38,227 nt of DNA. Origin: Fidelibacterota bacterium (GTDB lineage Bacteria > Pseudomonadota > Alphaproteobacteria > Rhodospirillales > Rhodospirillaceae). The position numbers and the translations under genes are program-made. This document shows, piece after piece, positions 10,859 through 35,897 of this stretch (positions within the stretch are counted from its first letter, which is position 1; each line of letters starts with the position of its first letter). The notes under the pieces were generated by a model that was given only the letters and a program-made list of their open reading frames with translations, was not told where the DNA came from and searched no databases. The stretch is taken from the NCBI GenBank assembly GCA_947475365.1, contig CANJOI010000005.1:1-38227 (forward strand). Direction: 5' to 3'.

Positions 10859-12591
10859 CACCTGACCGCAACACCATCATCGCGTTTGCCCTGGCGATCG
10901 TCGTTCTCCTGGGCTGGGAATACTGGTTCGCTCCTAAGAAGGCCGCCGTAGCGCCCGCGCCCGTCGCCGGGGCCCCGTCAGCCACGCCGGTGGCCACCCC
11001 CGCTACTGTGCCCGCGAACCCCAACGCCGCGCTGGGCACGCCGGCCGAGGCCGCCGCGCCCGAACAGCGCATCAAGATCAACACGGCGCACCTGCACGGC
11101 TCGCTCACCCTGACCGGCGGCCGCTTCGACGACATCACGCTCGCGCAATACCGCGACACCCTTGATCCCAAGAGCCCGGAAGTCGTGCTGTTCTCGCCGA
11201 CCGTGGCGGCGAAGCCCTATTATGCCGAGATCGGCTGGCTCTCCTCCGACCAGGGCGTTGTGCTGCCGACCGCCACCACCACCTGGACCACCGAGAACCC
11301 CGACGCGCAGCTCACCGATACGACGCCGGTGGTGCTCACCTGGGACAACGGCCAGGGCCTTACCTTCAAGCGCACCATCAAGGTCGACCGCGACTACCTG
11401 TTCACGGTCGAGCAGAGCGTCCAGAACGCCGGCGAGAAGCCGGTCACCCTGTTCCCCTACAGCCTGATCGCGCGCTTCGACAATCCGGCGGAGAAGGCCA
11501 CCTACATTTCGCATGAAGGCCCCATCGGCGTGTTCAACAGCGCCTCCATGGAAAAGAAATACGCCGACGTGAAGAAGGAAGGCCGCATCGCGGCCGAATC
11601 CGCCGGCGGCTGGATCGGCATGACCGACAAATACTGGCTGTCGGCCATCGCCTTCGACCCCAAGCTCAAGATCGCGGCCTCGTTCAATTACGCCGACGCC
11701 GCCGGCCGCGAGCGCTATCAGACCGACCTGCGCGCCGATCCCATCACCGTGGGCGCGGGCGAAACCAAGGCCGTGTCGTCCTACCTGTTCGCCGGCGCCA
11801 AGGAGCTCGGCATCCTCGATCAATACGCCCAGACTCCCGGGATCGCCCGCCTCGACCTCGCCATCGATTTCGGCTGGTTCTGGTTTCTGACCATCCCGTT
11901 CTTCCACGCGCTGCGCTGGCTGCACGACCTCTTGGGCAACTTCGGCCTGGCGATTCTGGCGTTCTCGACCTTCGTGCGCCTCCTGATGTTCCCGATCGCC
12001 AACAAACAGTTCTCGGCGATGAACAACATGAAGCGCCTGCAGCCGCAGATGAAGGCGCTTCAGGACCGCTACGCCAACGACCGCGCCAAGATGAACCAGG
12101 AGATGATGGAGCTGTACAAGCGCGAGAAGGTCAATCCGCTCACCGGCTGCCTGCCGATCGTGATCCAGATCCCGGTGTTCTTCGCGCTGTATAAAGTGCT
12201 GTTCGTGACCATCGAGATGCGCCACGCGCCGTTCTACGGCTGGATCCACGATCTGTCCGCCGCGGACCCCACCAGCATCCTCAACCTGTTCGGGCTGCTG
12301 CCTTACGGAATCCCGCCGATCCTGCACATCGTCAGCATCGGCGCCTGGCCGCTGATCTACGGCATCACCATGTTCCTGCAACAGAAGCTCTCGCCTCAAC
12401 CCGCCGACCCGATGCAGGCCAAGATCATGATGTACTTCCCCCTGATCTTCACCTTCGTGCTGGCCTCCATGCCGGCCGGGCTTGTGATCTACTGGGCCTG
12501 GAGCAATACCCTGGCGATCCTCCAGCAATGGCTGCTGACGCGTAATACCGGCCCCGGCAAAACCGACTCTGGTAAAACCGCGCCGGCATGA
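10855..12591 (+). CDS. yidC: Membrane protein insertase YidC
   Basis: A 578-residue inner-membrane insertase/chaperone (YidC/Oxa1/Alb3 family) that works alone or with SecYEG. Residues 5-25 form the first membrane helix ([19 protein letters not shown]), followed by an Ala/Pro-rich linker and the large periplasmic beta-domain (about 70-340) found in Gram-negative YidC. The conserved insertase core follows: a helix with the groove arginine region ([17 protein letters not shown]), the cytoplasmic helical hairpin ([12 protein letters not shown]), then further helices ([37 protein letters not shown]). The start overlaps yidD and the stop overlaps engB by 4 nt each. Full length and intact. Confidence 0.97.
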
Positions 12592-13241
12592 ACGCCAACG
12601 AAATGACAGTGGGGCCCGTCCACGATATCGAAGCCGGACGCAGACTGTTCACGCGGCCCTGCCGTTTTCTGAAGGGCGTGATGGCGCTCGATCAGATGCC
12701 GGAAGCCGACATCCCGGAGATCGCCTTCGCGGGCCGCTCCAATGTCGGCAAGTCCAGCCTGATCAACGCACTCACCGGCAACAGCACCATCGCGCGCACG
12801 TCCAACACGCCCGGCCGCACCCAGGAGATCAACTTCTTCGATCTCGGCGGACGCCTGACCATGACCGACCTGCCGGGCTACGGCTTCGCCCAGGCCCCCA
12901 AGGACAAGGTCGGCGCCTGGACCGATTTAATAAAACTGTATCTCAAAGGCCGGCCAACCTTGCGCCGCGCCCTGGTCCTGGTGGACAGCCGCCACGGCCT
13001 CAAGGAGAACGATCGCGAGATCATGAAGCTGATGGATTCGTCGGCCGTGAACTATCAGGTCATCCTGACCAAGGCCGACAAGCTGAAGCCCGGCCCTCTG
13101 GCGAAGGTGCTGGCCGAAGTGACCGAAGCCATCGCCAAGCATGTGGCCGCGCATCCCGAGGTACTGGTTACCAGCGCCGCCGACGGTTTCGGCATCCCCG
13201 AGGCCCGCGCGGCCTTGTCAGAGCTGGCGCTGCCAGAGTAA
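12588..13241 (+). CDS. yihA: Ribosome biogenesis GTPase EngB/YsxC/YihA
   Basis: A 217-residue TRAFAC-class GTPase needed for late large-subunit assembly. GTPase motifs are clear: G1 AGRSNVGKSS, a G2 threonine in SNTPGRTQ, G3 DLPGYGFA, G4 TKADK and G5 VTSAA. The start ATG overlaps the yidC stop (ATGA), giving the usual alphaproteobacterial order yidC-engB-argB. It is the last gene of the tightly coupled run; 96 nt with its own leader structure separate it from argB. Confidence 0.96.
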   Translation: MNANEMTVGPVHDIEAGRRLFTRPCRFLKGVMALDQMPEADIPEIAFAGRSNVGKSSLINALTGNSTIARTSNTPGRTQEINFFDLGGRLTMTDLPGYGFAQAPKDKVGAWTDLIKLYLKGRPTLRRALVLVDSRHGLKENDREIMKLMDSSAVNYQVILTKADKLKPGPLAKVLAEVTEAIAKHVAAHPEVLVTSAADGFGIPEARAALSELALPE

Positions 13242-13273
13242 GTAGAAATTCTCAGTAGGCTTATAGTTTTGTC

Positions 13274-13317
13274 GCGTGTCCGGACGGAAAACCGGTGCCC
13301 ACTTTTCCTGAACACGC
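13274..13317 (+). repeat. Structured 44-bp inverted repeat in the argB leader (copy 1)
   Basis: The outer arms GCGTGT (13274-13279) and ACACGC (13312-13317) pair, as do inner arms GGAAAA (13286-13291) and TTTTCC (13303-13308), around an 11-nt loop CCGGTGCCCAC. It ends 20 nt before the argB ATG. A second copy lies at 34116-34158 with compensatory stem changes. From memory it resembles the short palindromic repeats with a GGAAAACCGG...CCCACTTTTCC core that are common between genes in Rhizobiales. A TATAGT box (13262-13267) sits just upstream, but it lacks a good -35. Confidence 0.8.
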
Positions 13318-13337
13318 TCGCGCGTTGAAAGGCTCTC

Positions 13338-14240
13338 ATGTCCGCCGAGAACGATAATGCCGTCTGGCTGGAGAAAGCGGGCGTCCTGGCCGAGGCGCTG
13401 CCGTTCATGCGCGCCCATGCCGGTGAAACCGTGGTGGTCAAATACGGCGGCCACGCCATGGGCGACGAAACTGTCGCCGAGCGTTTCGCCAAGGACATCG
13501 TGCTGCTGAAGCAGGTCGGCATCAACCCGATCGTCGTCCACGGCGGCGGCCCGCAGATCGGCGCCATGCTTGAGCGCCTGAAGATCAAGAGCGAGTTCAT
13601 CGACGGCTTGCGCGTCACCGACGCCGCCACCGTCGAGATCGTCGAGATGGTGCTGTGCGGCTCCATCAATAAGCAGATCGTCAGCGCCATCAACAAGGCC
13701 GGCGGCTTCGCCGTCGGCATGTCGGGCAAGGACGGCAACCTGATCAAGGCGCGCAAGCTGCGGCGCTCGAAAAAGGACCCGGGCTCGAACATCGAGAAGA
13801 TCCTGGACCTCGGCTTCGTCGGCGAACCCTCCGAAATCAATCCCCATATCCTCGACACCTTTGAGGAATCCGACATCATCCCGATCATCGCGCCCATCGG
13901 CGTGGGGCCGAACGGCGAGACCTACAACATCAATGCCGACACCGTGGCCGGCGCCGTGGCCGGGGCGGCGGGCGCCGCGCGCCTGTTGATGCTCACCGAC
14001 GTGCCGGGCGTGTTGGATGACACCGGCCGCCTGATCAAGGAAATGACCCTTGAGCGCGCCAAGACGCTGATCCAGTCGGGCACCATCTCGGGCGGCATGA
14101 TCCCGAAGGTGGAAACCTGCATGGAAGCGGTCGAACAGGGAGTCGAGGGGGCGGTGATCGTCGATGGCCGCGTGCCGCACGCCGTTCTTCTGGAACTGTT
14201 CACGCCTTCTGGTGCGGGCACATTGATCCGCGCGCGCTAG
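13338..14240 (+). CDS. argB: Acetylglutamate kinase
   Basis: A 300-residue amino-acid kinase that phosphorylates N-acetyl-L-glutamate, the second step of arginine synthesis. Visible motifs include VVKYGGHAM (nucleotide/phosphate binding), [11 protein letters not shown], the [10 protein letters not shown] segment, the [13 protein letters not shown] loop, [12 protein letters not shown] and the C-terminal GGMIPKVE. The N-terminal extension and length fit the arginine-inhibited hexameric type, but inhibition is inferred. ATG 13338 has an AAAGG ribosome-binding site 6-7 nt upstream. A structured repeat sits in its leader. The stop shares one base with the next start (TAGTG). Confidence 0.97.
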
Positions 14241-32539: not shown

Positions 32540-33982
32540 ATGCGTCTGAAGACTTTTAAGGCCGGCTTCCGCCGGCGTGCATTCGCGGCTTCGGTGGTGG
32601 CGCTGTCCACCGCGTTTCTGACACCGGCCGGCCAAGCCGCGGACGTCAAGATCGCGCCCAAGGGCGCCAAGTTCTCCGAGGACACTTACAAGTACCTCGA
32701 ACTCTTTGGCGACGTGTTCGAACGCGTGCGCAAGGACTACGTCGAGGACGTGTCCGACCAGCAGCTGCTCGAAAACGCCATCAACGGTATGCTCACCGGC
32801 CTCGATCCGCATTCCGGGTACATGCCGGCCAAGAGCTTCCAGGACATGCAGGAGCAGACCAAGGGTGAGTTCGGGGGCCTCGGCATCGAGGTCGTGATGG
32901 ATAACGGCTTTGTCAAAGTGGTCTCGCCGATCGACGACACCCCGGCGTCCCGCGCCGGCATCCAGTCGGGCGACTACATCGTCGCCATCGACGGCAAGTC
33001 CGCCGGCGGCCTGACGCTCAACGAGGCGGTCGACAAGATGCGCGGCCCCATCAACAGCTCCATCACCGTCACCATCCGCCGCATCGGCCAGGATCCGTTC
33101 GATGTGAAGATGGCCCGCGCCGTGATCAAGGTGCGCACCGTCAGCGCGCGCGCCGAAAACGACGTCGCTTATATCCGCATCGCCCAGTTCACCGAACAGA
33201 CCCAGCCCGGTCTCGACAAGGCGATGAAGGACATGAAGGAAAAAATCGGCGACAAGCTGAAAGGCTATGTCATCGATCTGCGCAACAACCCGGGCGGCCT
33301 GCTCGATCAGGCGGTGTCGGTGTCCGATACTTTCCTCGACCGCGGCGAGATCGTGTCCACGCGCACCCGCCACAGCGAAGAGACCCAGCGTTTCAACGCC
33401 AAGGCCGGCGACCAGGCCGACGGCAAGCCCATCGTCGTGCTGATCAACGACGGCTCGGCCTCCGCGTCGGAAATCGTCGCCGGCGCGCTGCAGGACCACG
33501 GCCGCGCCATCCTGCTCGGCACCAAGAGCTTCGGCAAAGGTTCGGTCCAGACCATCATCCCGCTGGCCCGCGGCGAAAGCGCCATGCGCCTGACCACCGC
33601 GCGCTACTACACGCCGAGCGGCCGCTCGATCCAGGCGCTCGGCATCGAGCCGGATATCGAGGTCCAGCCGGCGAAGGTGGAGAAGATCGTCAGCGCCGCG
33701 GCCAGCCTTCGCCGCGCCGAAGCGGACCTGAAGGGCGCGCTCAAGAACGACACCGTCAAGGACAAGGCGCCTGACGGCAAAGCGGCGCCCGGCCCGACCT
33801 CCCAGGCCCCGGGTGCTCCCGGAGCCCCGTCGGCCGGCGCGAAAGCGCCAGGCCCCGGTGACGCCGCCGCGGCGCCGGAACAACCGCCCGAAGACTATCA
33901 GCTCACCAGGGCGCTGGACCTGCTGCGCGGCATCGCGCTCTATCAGCGGGCCTCGGCCGGCGGCACCAGCGCCGTCAAATAA
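32540..33982 (+). CDS. ctpA: Carboxyl-terminal processing protease (S41, CtpA)
   Basis: A 480-residue periplasmic serine protease. The N-terminus carries a signal peptide (about 1-34, cleavage near GQAA). A PDZ domain (about 110-190, GLGIEV and SGDYIVAIDG) follows, then the S41 core with LRNNPGGLL and the Ser-Lys catalytic dyad S308 in NDGSASASE and K333 in SFGKGS, 25 residues apart as in Prc. The C-terminus has a Pro/Ala/Gly linker (about 415-455) and a conserved DYQLTRALDLLRG segment. Such proteases trim envelope hydrolases or lipoproteins; the EnvC-like neighbour 37 nt upstream fits a role in cell-wall remodelling. A strong terminator follows. Confidence 0.95.
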   Translation: MRLKTFKAGFRRRAFAASVVALSTAFLTPAGQAADVKIAPKGAKFSEDTYKYLELFGDVFERVRKDYVEDVSDQQLLENAINGMLTGLDPHSGYMPAKSFQDMQEQTKGEFGGLGIEVVMDNGFVKVVSPIDDTPASRAGIQSGDYIVAIDGKSAGGLTLNEAVDKMRGPINSSITVTIRRIGQDPFDVKMARAVIKVRTVSARAENDVAYIRIAQFTEQTQPGLDKAMKDMKEKIGDKLKGYVIDLRNNPGGLLDQAVSVSDTFLDRGEIVSTRTRHSEETQRFNAKAGDQADGKPIVVLINDGSASASEIVAGALQDHGRAILLGTKSFGKGSVQTIIPLARGESAMRLTTARYYTPSGRSIQALGIEPDIEVQPAKVEKIVSAAASLRRAEADLKGALKNDTVKDKAPDGKAAPGPTSQAPGAPGAPSAGAKAPGPGDAAAAPEQPPEDYQLTRALDLLRGIALYQRASAGGTSAVK

Positions 33983-34056: not shown

Positions 34057-34081
34057 AGGCTCGTACTATAGTGTGCGTGCT

Positions 34082-34102
34082 GGCTGTGGCGGTGCCACAG
34101 CC
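34082..34102 (+). promoter_or_regulatory. Hairpin in the leader of the YibQ-like gene
   Basis: GGCTGTGGC (34082-34090) and GCCACAGCC (34094-34102) form a perfect 9-bp stem with a 3-nt loop. It lies 13 nt before the structured repeat. No T-run follows, so it is not a terminator; it may be a regulatory RNA hairpin or an operator. Confidence 0.5.
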
Positions 34103-34115
34103 ATGTATGCTGGTC

Positions 34116-34158
34116 GCATTTTCCACGGTGAACCGACGCCCACTTCACCTGAAAATGC
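34116..34158 (+). repeat. Structured 43-bp inverted repeat in the YibQ-like leader (copy 2)
   Basis: Outer arms GCATTTTC (34116-34123) and GAAAATGC (34151-34158) and inner arms GGTGAA (34127-34132) and TTCACC (34144-34149) enclose the 11-nt loop CCGACGCCCAC. It matches copy 1 (13274-13317) in loop, order of arms and orientation relative to the gene, but its stems carry compensatory changes. It ends 20 nt before the GTG start at 34179, the same distance as copy 1 from argB. Confidence 0.8.
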
Positions 34159-34178
34159 TCTGTGGCGGAGCGCAGCCC

Positions 34179-35897
34179 GTGCTGAATTTCCTCAAGCGTG
34201 GCGGTCAGGCGAAAGATCCCTTCAGCGGGGATGGCGACGACATGTTCGACGCCGAATCGCGTTTCGCCGGCAAGGGCCCCAAAATTGCCTTGGCCGCGAG
34301 TGTGGTGTTGTTCCTGATGCTGGCCGGCGGCATCGCCGCAATCATCATGACGGGAAAAGACACGCCACCGCCCGTGACCGGCAGTTTCGCCGATATCGAA
34401 GTGGTCGATGAACCGGAACCGGCCGCCACTGCGGCGGCGCCGGCTGTGCCAGCCGCGCCCGGTGCACCCGCAGCGAAAGCTGTTGCCACCGACGCGGCCG
34501 CCGCCACCGACCGTTCCGTCGAACGCCGGCCATGGCTCGCGGCCCCCCCGGGAAGCACCGAAAAGCGCCCCGGCGTGAACGAGCCCGCACCAAAAGCGGC
34601 GGAGACCAAGACGGCAGCGAAAGCGCCGGACGTCAAAGCCGCGGAAACCAAAGCGCCGGAAACCAAGGCGCCGGAAGCCAAAACTGCTTTGATGACACCG
34701 CCGCCGGCGGTCGCGCCGCCGGCGAAGGCGCCGGAAGCCAAAGCGCCTGAGGTAAAAGCGCCTGAGGCCAAGGCACCTGAGGCCAAAGCCCCCGAAATCA
34801 AGGCGGCGCAAGCACCCGCGCCCGCACCTGCCAAGACCGCGGAAGCCCCCAAAGAGCCCGCAAAGGAACCCGCGCCCGCCGTCGCCGATGCATCACCGTT
34901 CGGCCCCGCACCCGGTGCGCCCGGCCTGTTCGGCGCACCGGTCGGCTCCGATGGCGGTCCTTCAGTGGCCGGTGGACGTCCACGGTTGGTGGACCCGGCC
35001 CAGCCGCCCATCGACAAAACCGCGATCGCATCACCCCCGCCGCGCTTCGCTAATATTGTGACTCCGCGCAAGGACCCCACACCGGCCAAGACGGCGCCCA
35101 ACACCGCCAAGGTGGCCGTGGTGATCGACGGGTTAGGTCTGAGCCAGAGCGCCACCGATGCGGCCATCACCAAGCTGCCGGCCGCCGTGACCCTCGCCTT
35201 CAGCCCTTACACGCGCAACCTCAAGAAGTGGACCGAGAAGGCCAAAGCCGGCGGTCACGAGGTGCTGATCCAGGTCCCCATGGAGAGCAAGGCGTTCCCG
35301 GCCGAGGATCCGGGACCCCTCGGCCTGTTGACCAGCATCGAAGCCAAGGAAAATGCGCTACGCCTGGACGCGGTCCTCAAGGATGCGGGCGACGCTGTCG
35401 GCGTGCTCGATTCCGAAGGCAGCAAGTTCCGCGAGTCCGAGGCGCATATCAATGCGGTGTTCACGAAGCTCAAGGAAAAGAACTTGTTCTATGTGCAGGG
35501 CGAGCCGGGTGTGCGCGTCGGTGAAGCCAGTGTACCGGTGGCCGTGACCGATGTGGTGTTGGACGAACGGCCGTTCCGTGCCGCGGTCGACGCGCGCCTC
35601 GATTACGCCGAGCGCCTCGCCAAATACCAGGGCAGCGCTGTCGCCACCGTGGGTGCCAAGCCCGTGAGCTTTGAACGCCTGGTGCTATGGCTGGAACAGG
35701 CCCAGAAGAAGGGCGTTCAACTGGCGCCGATCTCCGAAGTGCTGATCAGATCGGAAGCCGCCAACGCCCCGGCGCCGAAGGCCGCGGAGCCGGCGAAGGG
35801 CAAGGCCGAGGCCGCACCCGCGAAAGGTAAGGCGGCGGAACGCGACGCCCCGCCCGCGAAAGCCAAGGCGGAACCCAAGGCTAAGACCGCTCACTAA
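34179..35897 (+). CDS. YibQ-like divergent polysaccharide deacetylase with one membrane anchor
   Basis: A 572-residue envelope protein. A cytoplasmic N-terminus is followed by one membrane helix (about 35-57), a 250-residue Ala/Pro/Lys-rich periplasmic linker with KAPE repeats, then the divergent deacetylase domain (about 305-530), starting VAVVIDGLGLS and ending APISEVL. The family is related to NodB-type carbohydrate esterases, but its activity is not established. A second low-complexity Ala/Lys tail follows. GTG 34179 is chosen because GGAG (34167-34170) lies 8 nt upstream; in-frame starts further up fall inside leader hairpins. The stop shares one base with the rppH start (TAATG). Confidence 0.9.
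   Translation: MLNFLKRGGQAKDPFSGDGDDMFDAESRFAGKGPKIALAASVVLFLMLAGGIAAIIMTGKDTPPPVTGSFADIEVVDEPEPAATAAAPAVPAAPGAPAAKAVATDAAAATDRSVERRPWLAAPPGSTEKRPGVNEPAPKAAETKTAAKAPDVKAAETKAPETKAPEAKTALMTPPPAVAPPAKAPEAKAPEVKAPEAKAPEAKAPEIKAAQAPAPAPAKTAEAPKEPAKEPAPAVADASPFGPAPGAPGLFGAPVGSDGGPSVAGGRPRLVDPAQPPIDKTAIASPPPRFANIVTPRKDPTPAKTAPNTAKVAVVIDGLGLSQSATDAAITKLPAAVTLAFSPYTRNLKKWTEKAKAGGHEVLIQVPMESKAFPAEDPGPLGLLTSIEAKENALRLDAVLKDAGDAVGVLDSEGSKFRESEAHINAVFTKLKEKNLFYVQGEPGVRVGEASVPVAVTDVVLDERPFRAAVDARLDYAERLAKYQGSAVATVGAKPVSFERLVLWLEQAQKKGVQLAPISEVLIRSEAANAPAPKAAEPAKGKAEAAPAKGKAAERDAPPAKAKAEPKAKTAH
34725..34799 (+). repeat. Five tandem 15-bp coding repeats (KAPEx)
   Basis: Five consecutive copies encode K-A-P-E followed by A, V, A, A and I. 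Looser copies precede them (for example ETKAPETKAPEAK from about 34644). They lie in the periplasmic linker of the YibQ-like protein, and their number may vary between strains. Confidence 0.8.

Follow-up and report, generated by a model that had tools for sequence, protein, structure and literature searches.

Several described repeats and leader RNAs resemble the hairpins treated here. The RIMEs (Rhizobium-specific intergenic mosaic elements) are likewise a multi-copy intergenic repeat of rhizobia, and the title of the paper describing them places them within a two-component system of Rhizobium (Osteras et al. 1995). Bru-RS1 and Bru-RS2 of Brucella are related to each other, palindromic, 103-106 bp long and associated with IS711, the reported target of which is YTAR. 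The REP repeats of the GTAG and CGTC superfamilies are likewise short palindromes dispersed between genes; the CGTC type predominates in Alphaproteobacteria, without a dedicated transposase (PMC3733652). Hairpins close to start codons are likewise known as alphaproteobacterial leader RNAs (serC, ybhL and others), and the ybhL element is a doubly bulged hairpin of ~60 nt that occurs only upstream of ybhL-like genes (PMC1273637). Compared with RIME, our element occurs well outside the rhizobia, is often a single hairpin and follows a gene-edge rule, whereas its likeness to Bru-RS lies in the presence of copies in Brucella/Ochrobactrum records and in ends that are often YTAR (37% and 46%); both comparisons are by description only. 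Unlike the REP superfamilies, it has no GTAG or CGTC end tag, and its loop is larger (PMC3733652).

The window, i.e., the whole 38,227-nucleotide stretch of DNA that was analysed, contains two of these hairpins (Table 1). An earlier note, made from the letters alone, had described them as inverted repeats with a common stem order, an 11-nt loop and the same orientation, and all of this was confirmed, as were their coordinates. The 20-nt distance from the end of each hairpin to a start codon was also recovered with the predicted starts of argB (ATG) and the YibQ-like gene. Copy 1 reads GCGTGT-ccggac-GGAAAA-CCGGTGCCCAC-TTTTCC-tga-ACACGC and copy 2 reads GCATTT-tccac-GGTGAA-CCGACGCCCAC-TTCACC-tga-AAATGC; the compensatory changes claimed between them are real, amounting to four double (paired) changes, two per stem. 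A loose pattern derived from both copies matched the window exactly twice, where shuffled sequences expect 0.17 matches and 0/100 gave two. A covariance model returned the copies, both of which belong to its training set, at E-values of 3e-18 and 2.8e-12, with the next-best match in the window at 0.19. Relative to shuffles, RNA folding on the + strand was no better for copy 1 (z -0.98) and better for copy 2 (z -5.0), but the reverse strand was the more stable for both, at -19.7 (copy 1) and -18.2 (copy 2) versus -12.9 and -13.9 kcal/mol on the + strand. At its gathering score, Rfam identified only tRNA and SRP RNA in the whole window, with no match to the hairpins, and gave nothing in nine loci holding copies. 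In this, and in being dispersed, the element is unlike the ybhL leader (PMC1273637).

Table 1. Coordinates of the two hairpins, their flanking sequences and the adjacent genes in the window.
Feature	Position	Strand	Evidence or remark
engB/ysxC (ribosome biogenesis GTPase)	12588..13241	+	TIGR03598, 215 bits; gene 5' of copy 1, stop TAA 13239-13241
T-rich linker of copy 1, CTTATAGTTTTGTC	13260..13273	+	left flank conserved across family
Copy 1: outer and inner stems, bulge on the 5' side, 11-nt loop	13274..13317	+	R1 covariance-model match 13252-13326, 78.8 bits
argB (acetylglutamate kinase), start codon 20 nt past copy 1	13338..14240	+	TIGR00761, 259.8 bits
S41 C-terminal processing peptidase, gene 5' of copy 2	32540..33982	+	TIGR00225, 339 bits; PF03572
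Small perfect inverted repeat TGGCTGTGG/CCACAGCCA, just 5' of copy 2	34081..34103	+	read by eye
Linker of copy 2, TGTATGCTGGTC	34104..34115	+	read from sequence; family consensus
Copy 2: architecture as copy 1	34116..34158	+	R1 match 34094-34167, 55.4 bits
YibQ-like divergent polysaccharide deacetylase, GTG start 20 nt past copy 2	34179..35897	+	PF04748, 175.5 bits

The hairpins belong to a genuine and distinct family of palindromes scattered through the genome. The element is ~60 bp long and comprises a T-rich linker, an outer stem, a bulge of 3-6 nt on the 5' side, an inner stem, the loop CCGGNNNCCAC and the right end GCTCTAG; the bulge and the loop remain recognisable across copies, and the consensus ends are TTTGGTC and TCTAG. 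Within three mismatches, the core pattern occurs at 35 sites in the genome of the window, a 3.53-Mb assembly of 79.9% completeness, versus 0 for a reversed control. The genome-wide covariance-model search that the earlier note had proposed was run with a first model built from 31 copies, and the many dispersed copies it returned confirmed the family: there are at least 69 matches, at least 65 of them at E<1e-3, both figures being lower bounds because 150 of the 952 genome candidates were scored. Few copies lie inside predicted genes (2/65 in the own genome, 6/91 in a genus/family set and 3/99 in a set from named genomes). Those of the own genome occur in either orientation, and the gene pairs around them are convergent, tandem or divergent; both flanking genes read in the element's direction at 30 of the 63 intergenic copies, and four of the five convergent junctions are filled by the element, almost stop to stop.

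A second, variable palindrome with GCTCTAG-like ends was seen 5' of the T-rich linker in 15/65 own-genome and 32/99 named copies, counts that stand without a random control. Combined with the T-run, this palindrome could act as a terminator of the gene lying 5' of it. RIME1 is reportedly ~108 bp long with two large palindromes, which would match the two-palindrome form of the element. The automatic count of second palindromes did not flag the small inverted repeat beside copy 2, but this repeat is possibly the accompanying first palindrome of that copy. Paired copies in the same orientation also occur near each other (G000:C46:13529-13660, L094; L164:2313-2538; L258:5687-5872), suggesting local duplication.

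Copies are present in 19/19 genomes of the window's genus including the own genome (18/18 congeners), in 9/18 other genera of its family and in 0/24 other families of the order. Among the matches listed, the named genomes are mostly Hyphomicrobiales (Bradyrhizobium, Mesorhizobium, Rhizobium, Agrobacterium and Brucella/Ochrobactrum), with some Rhodobacterales, Caulobacterales and Sphingomonadales, the assignment of genera to orders being in part presumed. Laboratory strains with the element include Insolitispirillum peregrinum DSM 11589 and Sinorhizobium meliloti 1021. When matches as weak as E = 10 are counted, 540 plasmid records also carry it. The link that the note drew to a widespread Rhizobiales intergenic repeat was right: the copies extend across the Hyphomicrobiales, and the plasmid records are mostly rhizobial. 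A second model (R2), built from 104 copies nearly all out of named records, detected the element in 30 of 289 genomes in a class-wide draw and in 30 of 249 in a phylum sample, the own genome included in each; all 30 of the latter are of the same class, the class make-up of the sample itself not being shown. Both searches scored few candidates per genome, so that per-genome counts are lower bounds. Two of the matches listed are in MAG contigs labelled Syntrophomonadaceae and Acidobacteria (L295, the 23-nt core only, and L297, full length, respectively); mislabelled bins or transfer are possible.

By their descriptions, the family probably includes RIME and perhaps also Bru-RS. The two-component system associated with RIME is one that we take to be chvI-exoS next to pckA. 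Among 81 genomes of the family of G499, pckA was matched in 80 and 30 loci were examined; three of the 30 hold a copy, and two of these rhizobial copies are directly behind the response-regulator gene adjoining pckA, with the downstream kinase not recognised. Such a position would be in keeping with the title of the RIME paper.

The same junctions were compared across genomes. ArgB was found in 34 of 37 genomes, giving 30 readable engB-argB loci, and only two of these junctions hold the element, those of the own genome (G000) and its sister G007. The other 28 gaps are without it, including that of G013, in which ArgB is 94% identical. At the deacetylase leader, the element is present in one of 16 readable loci (of 30), again in the own genome; the G007 leader runs off its contig and was not counted, and most of the other 15 keep, as judged by eye, a similar stretch 5' of the copy-2 position. 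Neither hairpin is thus an ancestral leader, and a leader RNA specific to argB is rejected on the 2/30 count. The 5'-UTR role that the earlier note had raised for argB or the YibQ-like gene is unsupported, given these counts and a family that occupies both orientations and all junction types. Between engB and argB of G038 (L126) there is a ~21-nt direct repeat, CAGAAGCCCCTGGCACGTTAA, in four copies, the last of them diverged.

Turnover was seen at other sites too. Flank comparison with the 48 G007 copies left 56 own elements without a counterpart, of which 36 had both sides alignable to G007 or G013; 35 of the 36 junctions were without hairpin or model match, and one (C55) was filled in both genomes. 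C46 enters this tally twice, because a single site there carries two copies. The sister has unrelated sequence in place of the element at C35 and C44:678; at the latter, a convergent junction (L096, G000:C44:678-752, versus L396, G007:C51), this is a long, perfect, bidirectional hairpin that is unrelated. One of the 35, the C115 site, is empty in the sister G007 (L386) but carries the element in G013 (L364:26-99), the more distant genome, as it does in G000; the element could have been lost, or gained more than once, at this stop codon, and possibly, then, not all empty sites are ancestral.

The position of the element relative to genes follows a rule, here determined with gene starts and stops from a home-made gene finder after dropping one short match of 92 and five of 104, plus copies inside genes. 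The right base lies 0-4 nt from an opposite-strand stop codon in 45/70 cases when the copies come from the window's genus and family, and in 31/61 of the named set. A distance of precisely 1 nt accounts for 60 of the 79 stops that lie within 5 nt; 57 of these 79 are TAG, versus 275/1081 for other genes. Where the intergenic gap has at least 40 nt to spare, 21/43 and 22/43 copies are at 0-2 nt, with only 1.2 and 1.0 expected. Distances from the right base to a same-strand start codon peak at 15-24 nt in the genus/family set (24/77), and 32/77 fall at 10-27 nt versus 16.0 expected (P 6e-6); in the mixed named set, enrichment on the start side was not significant (6/31 versus 4.1 expected, P 0.21). 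The left end is weakly anchored, to stop codons in the first set (23/85 versus 15.7 expected, P 0.0005) and otherwise not significantly. The stop-codon side is thus anchored more tightly than the start-codon side, and the 20-nt spacing found twice, at argB and at the deacetylase gene, is one face of the gene-edge rule of the family. Random distances and orientations had been put forward as evidence against a leader; the orientations indeed go both ways, whereas the distances are strongly non-random, but in the manner of this rule.

Database annotation gave the same picture. Eleven records among the best-scoring plasmid hits were examined, seven of which had usable gene tables; an opposite-strand stop was at 1 nt in 3/3 cases and a same-strand start at 17-21 nt in 3/4, the remaining one being at 126 nt. 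Because the ranking query ended in TCTAG, copies ending likewise were favoured among these hits. Within the CC-licensed PMC papers, the accessible text on palindromic repeats, RIME, Bru-RS and MITEs does not describe a gene-edge rule, and the motif strings of the element are absent from that literature. The dinucleotide TA is at +3/+4 of the right end in 41% and 54% of copies versus a background of 1.6% and 1.5%, with a weaker TA on the left, hinting at a TA or YTAR target; no constant target-site duplication, TA included, was consistently readable at the aligned junctions of these diverged genomes. Examined by eye, insertions had occurred at overlapping stop and start codons (C11:4972 and C204), at shared or overlapping stops of convergent genes (L196 vs L037, and C52), and just 5' of a Shine-Dalgarno-like GGAG (C18:13520). 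Chance truncation yielding an in-frame stop is not the rule, because the stop keeps its codon position where both alleles are readable. By eye, this was the case at C115, C153, C47, C97, C52, C204, C18:9765 and L196 vs L037; at C7 and C3, the stop had shifted by one or two codons.

Paired changes extend well beyond the two copies in the window. Over 104 copies, 91.7% of the outer-stem cells are standard pairs versus 75.0% in shuffles, and 226 cells have changed on both sides versus 74.8, a number reached by none of 500 shuffles. The 64 own copies behave alike, except that 10/500 shuffles reach the number of double-change pairs and 1/500 the pair-type number. Independent weight rests with the outer stem, since the search pattern dictated the inner stem of the seed and the model structure guided the A4 and A3 alignments. 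Nine element pairs, plus a tenth (C55), each occupy a junction shared by G000 and G007. Of the 124 base pairs compared in the nine, 100 are unchanged. Double changes affect six pairs and break none, and one-sided changes leave six paired and break 12. Because 30 of the 248 stem letters have changed, ~1.8 double changes would be expected under independence (hand arithmetic), and pairing seems to be restored in place between orthologous copies, if only weakly, and the numbers are small. As 12 of the 24 changed pairs are broken, maintenance of the palindrome is weak.

Selection on a leader RNA should make G.U mismatches outnumber A.C in the strand concerned. Over three alignments, the 11 of 14 pairs away from the bulge have 35 G.U and 36 A.C mismatches. 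Including the three bulge-edge pairs (6-8), which were left out of the count after the table was seen, gives 114 G.U versus 83 A.C, but pair 8, a poorly aligned position, accounts for this excess. Furthermore, the reverse strand gives the more stable RNA in 132/155 and 91/99 copies. The near equality of G.U and A.C away from the bulge leans to maintenance of the palindrome at the DNA level and not in a leader RNA; more broadly, the data lean towards pairing that is upheld by a DNA-level process or by a function on both strands. Covariation had originally been attributed either to a fold under selection or to a palindrome-preserving process, and it is the second that these mismatch counts lean to. 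Selection on a DNA hairpin and template-switch repair fit the data alike.

A cis-regulatory leader in the argB and deacetylase mRNAs, one that controls translation by lying a set distance 5' of the ribosome-binding site, would account for the orientation and 20-nt distance shared by both copies, for the strong paired changes across copies, and for the two-fold excess of genus/family right ends shortly before start codons. Copy 2 is probably transcribed, judging from the similar upstream stretch in most other deacetylase leaders, and transcription of REP elements and repeats is reported in S. meliloti, where 26 REP elements and 16 repeats have transcriptional activity; by analogy, some copies of the family may have an RNA role. 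However, the copies are lineage-specific at both genes, the host genes are unrelated, the stop-codon side is anchored even more tightly than the start side, G.U is in no excess over A.C away from the bulge, and it is the reverse strand that usually folds better, leaving such a leader very improbable. The last point, together with the one-nucleotide spacing to stop codons, would suit a hairpin kept behind stop codons as the terminated or processed end of an mRNA and lying only incidentally before the next gene. The filling of convergent junctions almost stop to stop, and the unrelated bidirectional hairpin that takes the element's place in the sister at C44:678, are in keeping with that idea. 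We nevertheless consider it unlikely, as nearly half of the intergenic copies lie between two genes reading the element's way and sites turn over between genomes. An intrinsic terminator was rejected: the right end is TCTAG, the T-rich left flank is A-rich in reverse, and the consensus has no U-tract after the hairpin in either direction.

Mobility raises the matter of an enzyme. A REP/REPIN-type repeat moved by a REP-associated tyrosine transposase of the genus has in its favour a Y1 transposase gene (PF01797) in 18/19 genomes of the genus and a match of the own-genome protein to REP_Tyr_transpos at 69.2 bits, below the cut-off of 80. The RAYT-like gene is at L422:3120-3788, with equivalents in L415-L417, L419, L421, L423, L424, L429, L431, L433 and L434. 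Across 26 transposase loci, some of them cut by contig ends, the only copy of the element (E<0.1) is ~1.7 kb from the gene (L422, own genome), whereas 12/26 hold a different palindrome, GTACC[A/T]GGTAC, versus 1/59 other loci of the genus. Moreover, G020 has 12 copies and no Y1 match, and the element ends in TCTAG on the right, without a GTAG tag; we therefore give this origin hardly any credence. The GTACC[A/T]GGTAC palindrome mostly brackets the Y1 gene on both sides. As it also occurs where the C185 element is absent (L368), this palindrome may constitute a separate dispersed repeat. No mobilising enzyme for the element was identified.

We thus regard it as very probable that both hairpins are lineage-specific copies of a non-autonomous palindromic DNA repeat that lodges at gene edges and whose pairing is kept at the DNA level. 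Judged from sequence comparison, the repeat is most likely a RIME-like, non-autonomous mobile palindrome. It would move as DNA through an enzyme supplied in trans and would persist at sites where a stop codon (TAG) is provided or adjoined by its end, or where a ribosome-binding site is left intact; the host genes would thus be undamaged. Covariation of the stems would then stem from restoration at the DNA level, through either selection of a hairpin or cruciform for movement or palindrome-correcting replication, and a need of the argB or deacetylase mRNA for the fold would not be its cause. A wider proposal is offered tentatively, as one we think may well prove wrong: a class-wide mobile hairpin would dock its right end on stop codons with 1-nt precision, rebuilding TAG, or just outside the ribosome-binding site, would be harmless to both genes at junctions, even those with 4-bp overlaps, and would have its palindrome continuously repaired at the DNA level.

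The unusual point is the combination of one-nucleotide docking at stop codons with signs of palindrome maintenance at the DNA level. If true, the proposal would add a new type of targeting, in which a non-autonomous element is directed to gene boundaries. Because the stems covary, such hairpins, present in many alphaproteobacterial genomes, could be mistaken for riboswitch-like leaders, and the G.U versus A.C strand test, combined with an empty-site comparison, is a simple way to separate a repeat from a leader. Docking 1 nt from the stop, which recurs in records with database annotation, is a precise regularity that lends itself to testing, and it raises the questions of which enzyme places the element and what effects it may have on termination, translation or operon structure.
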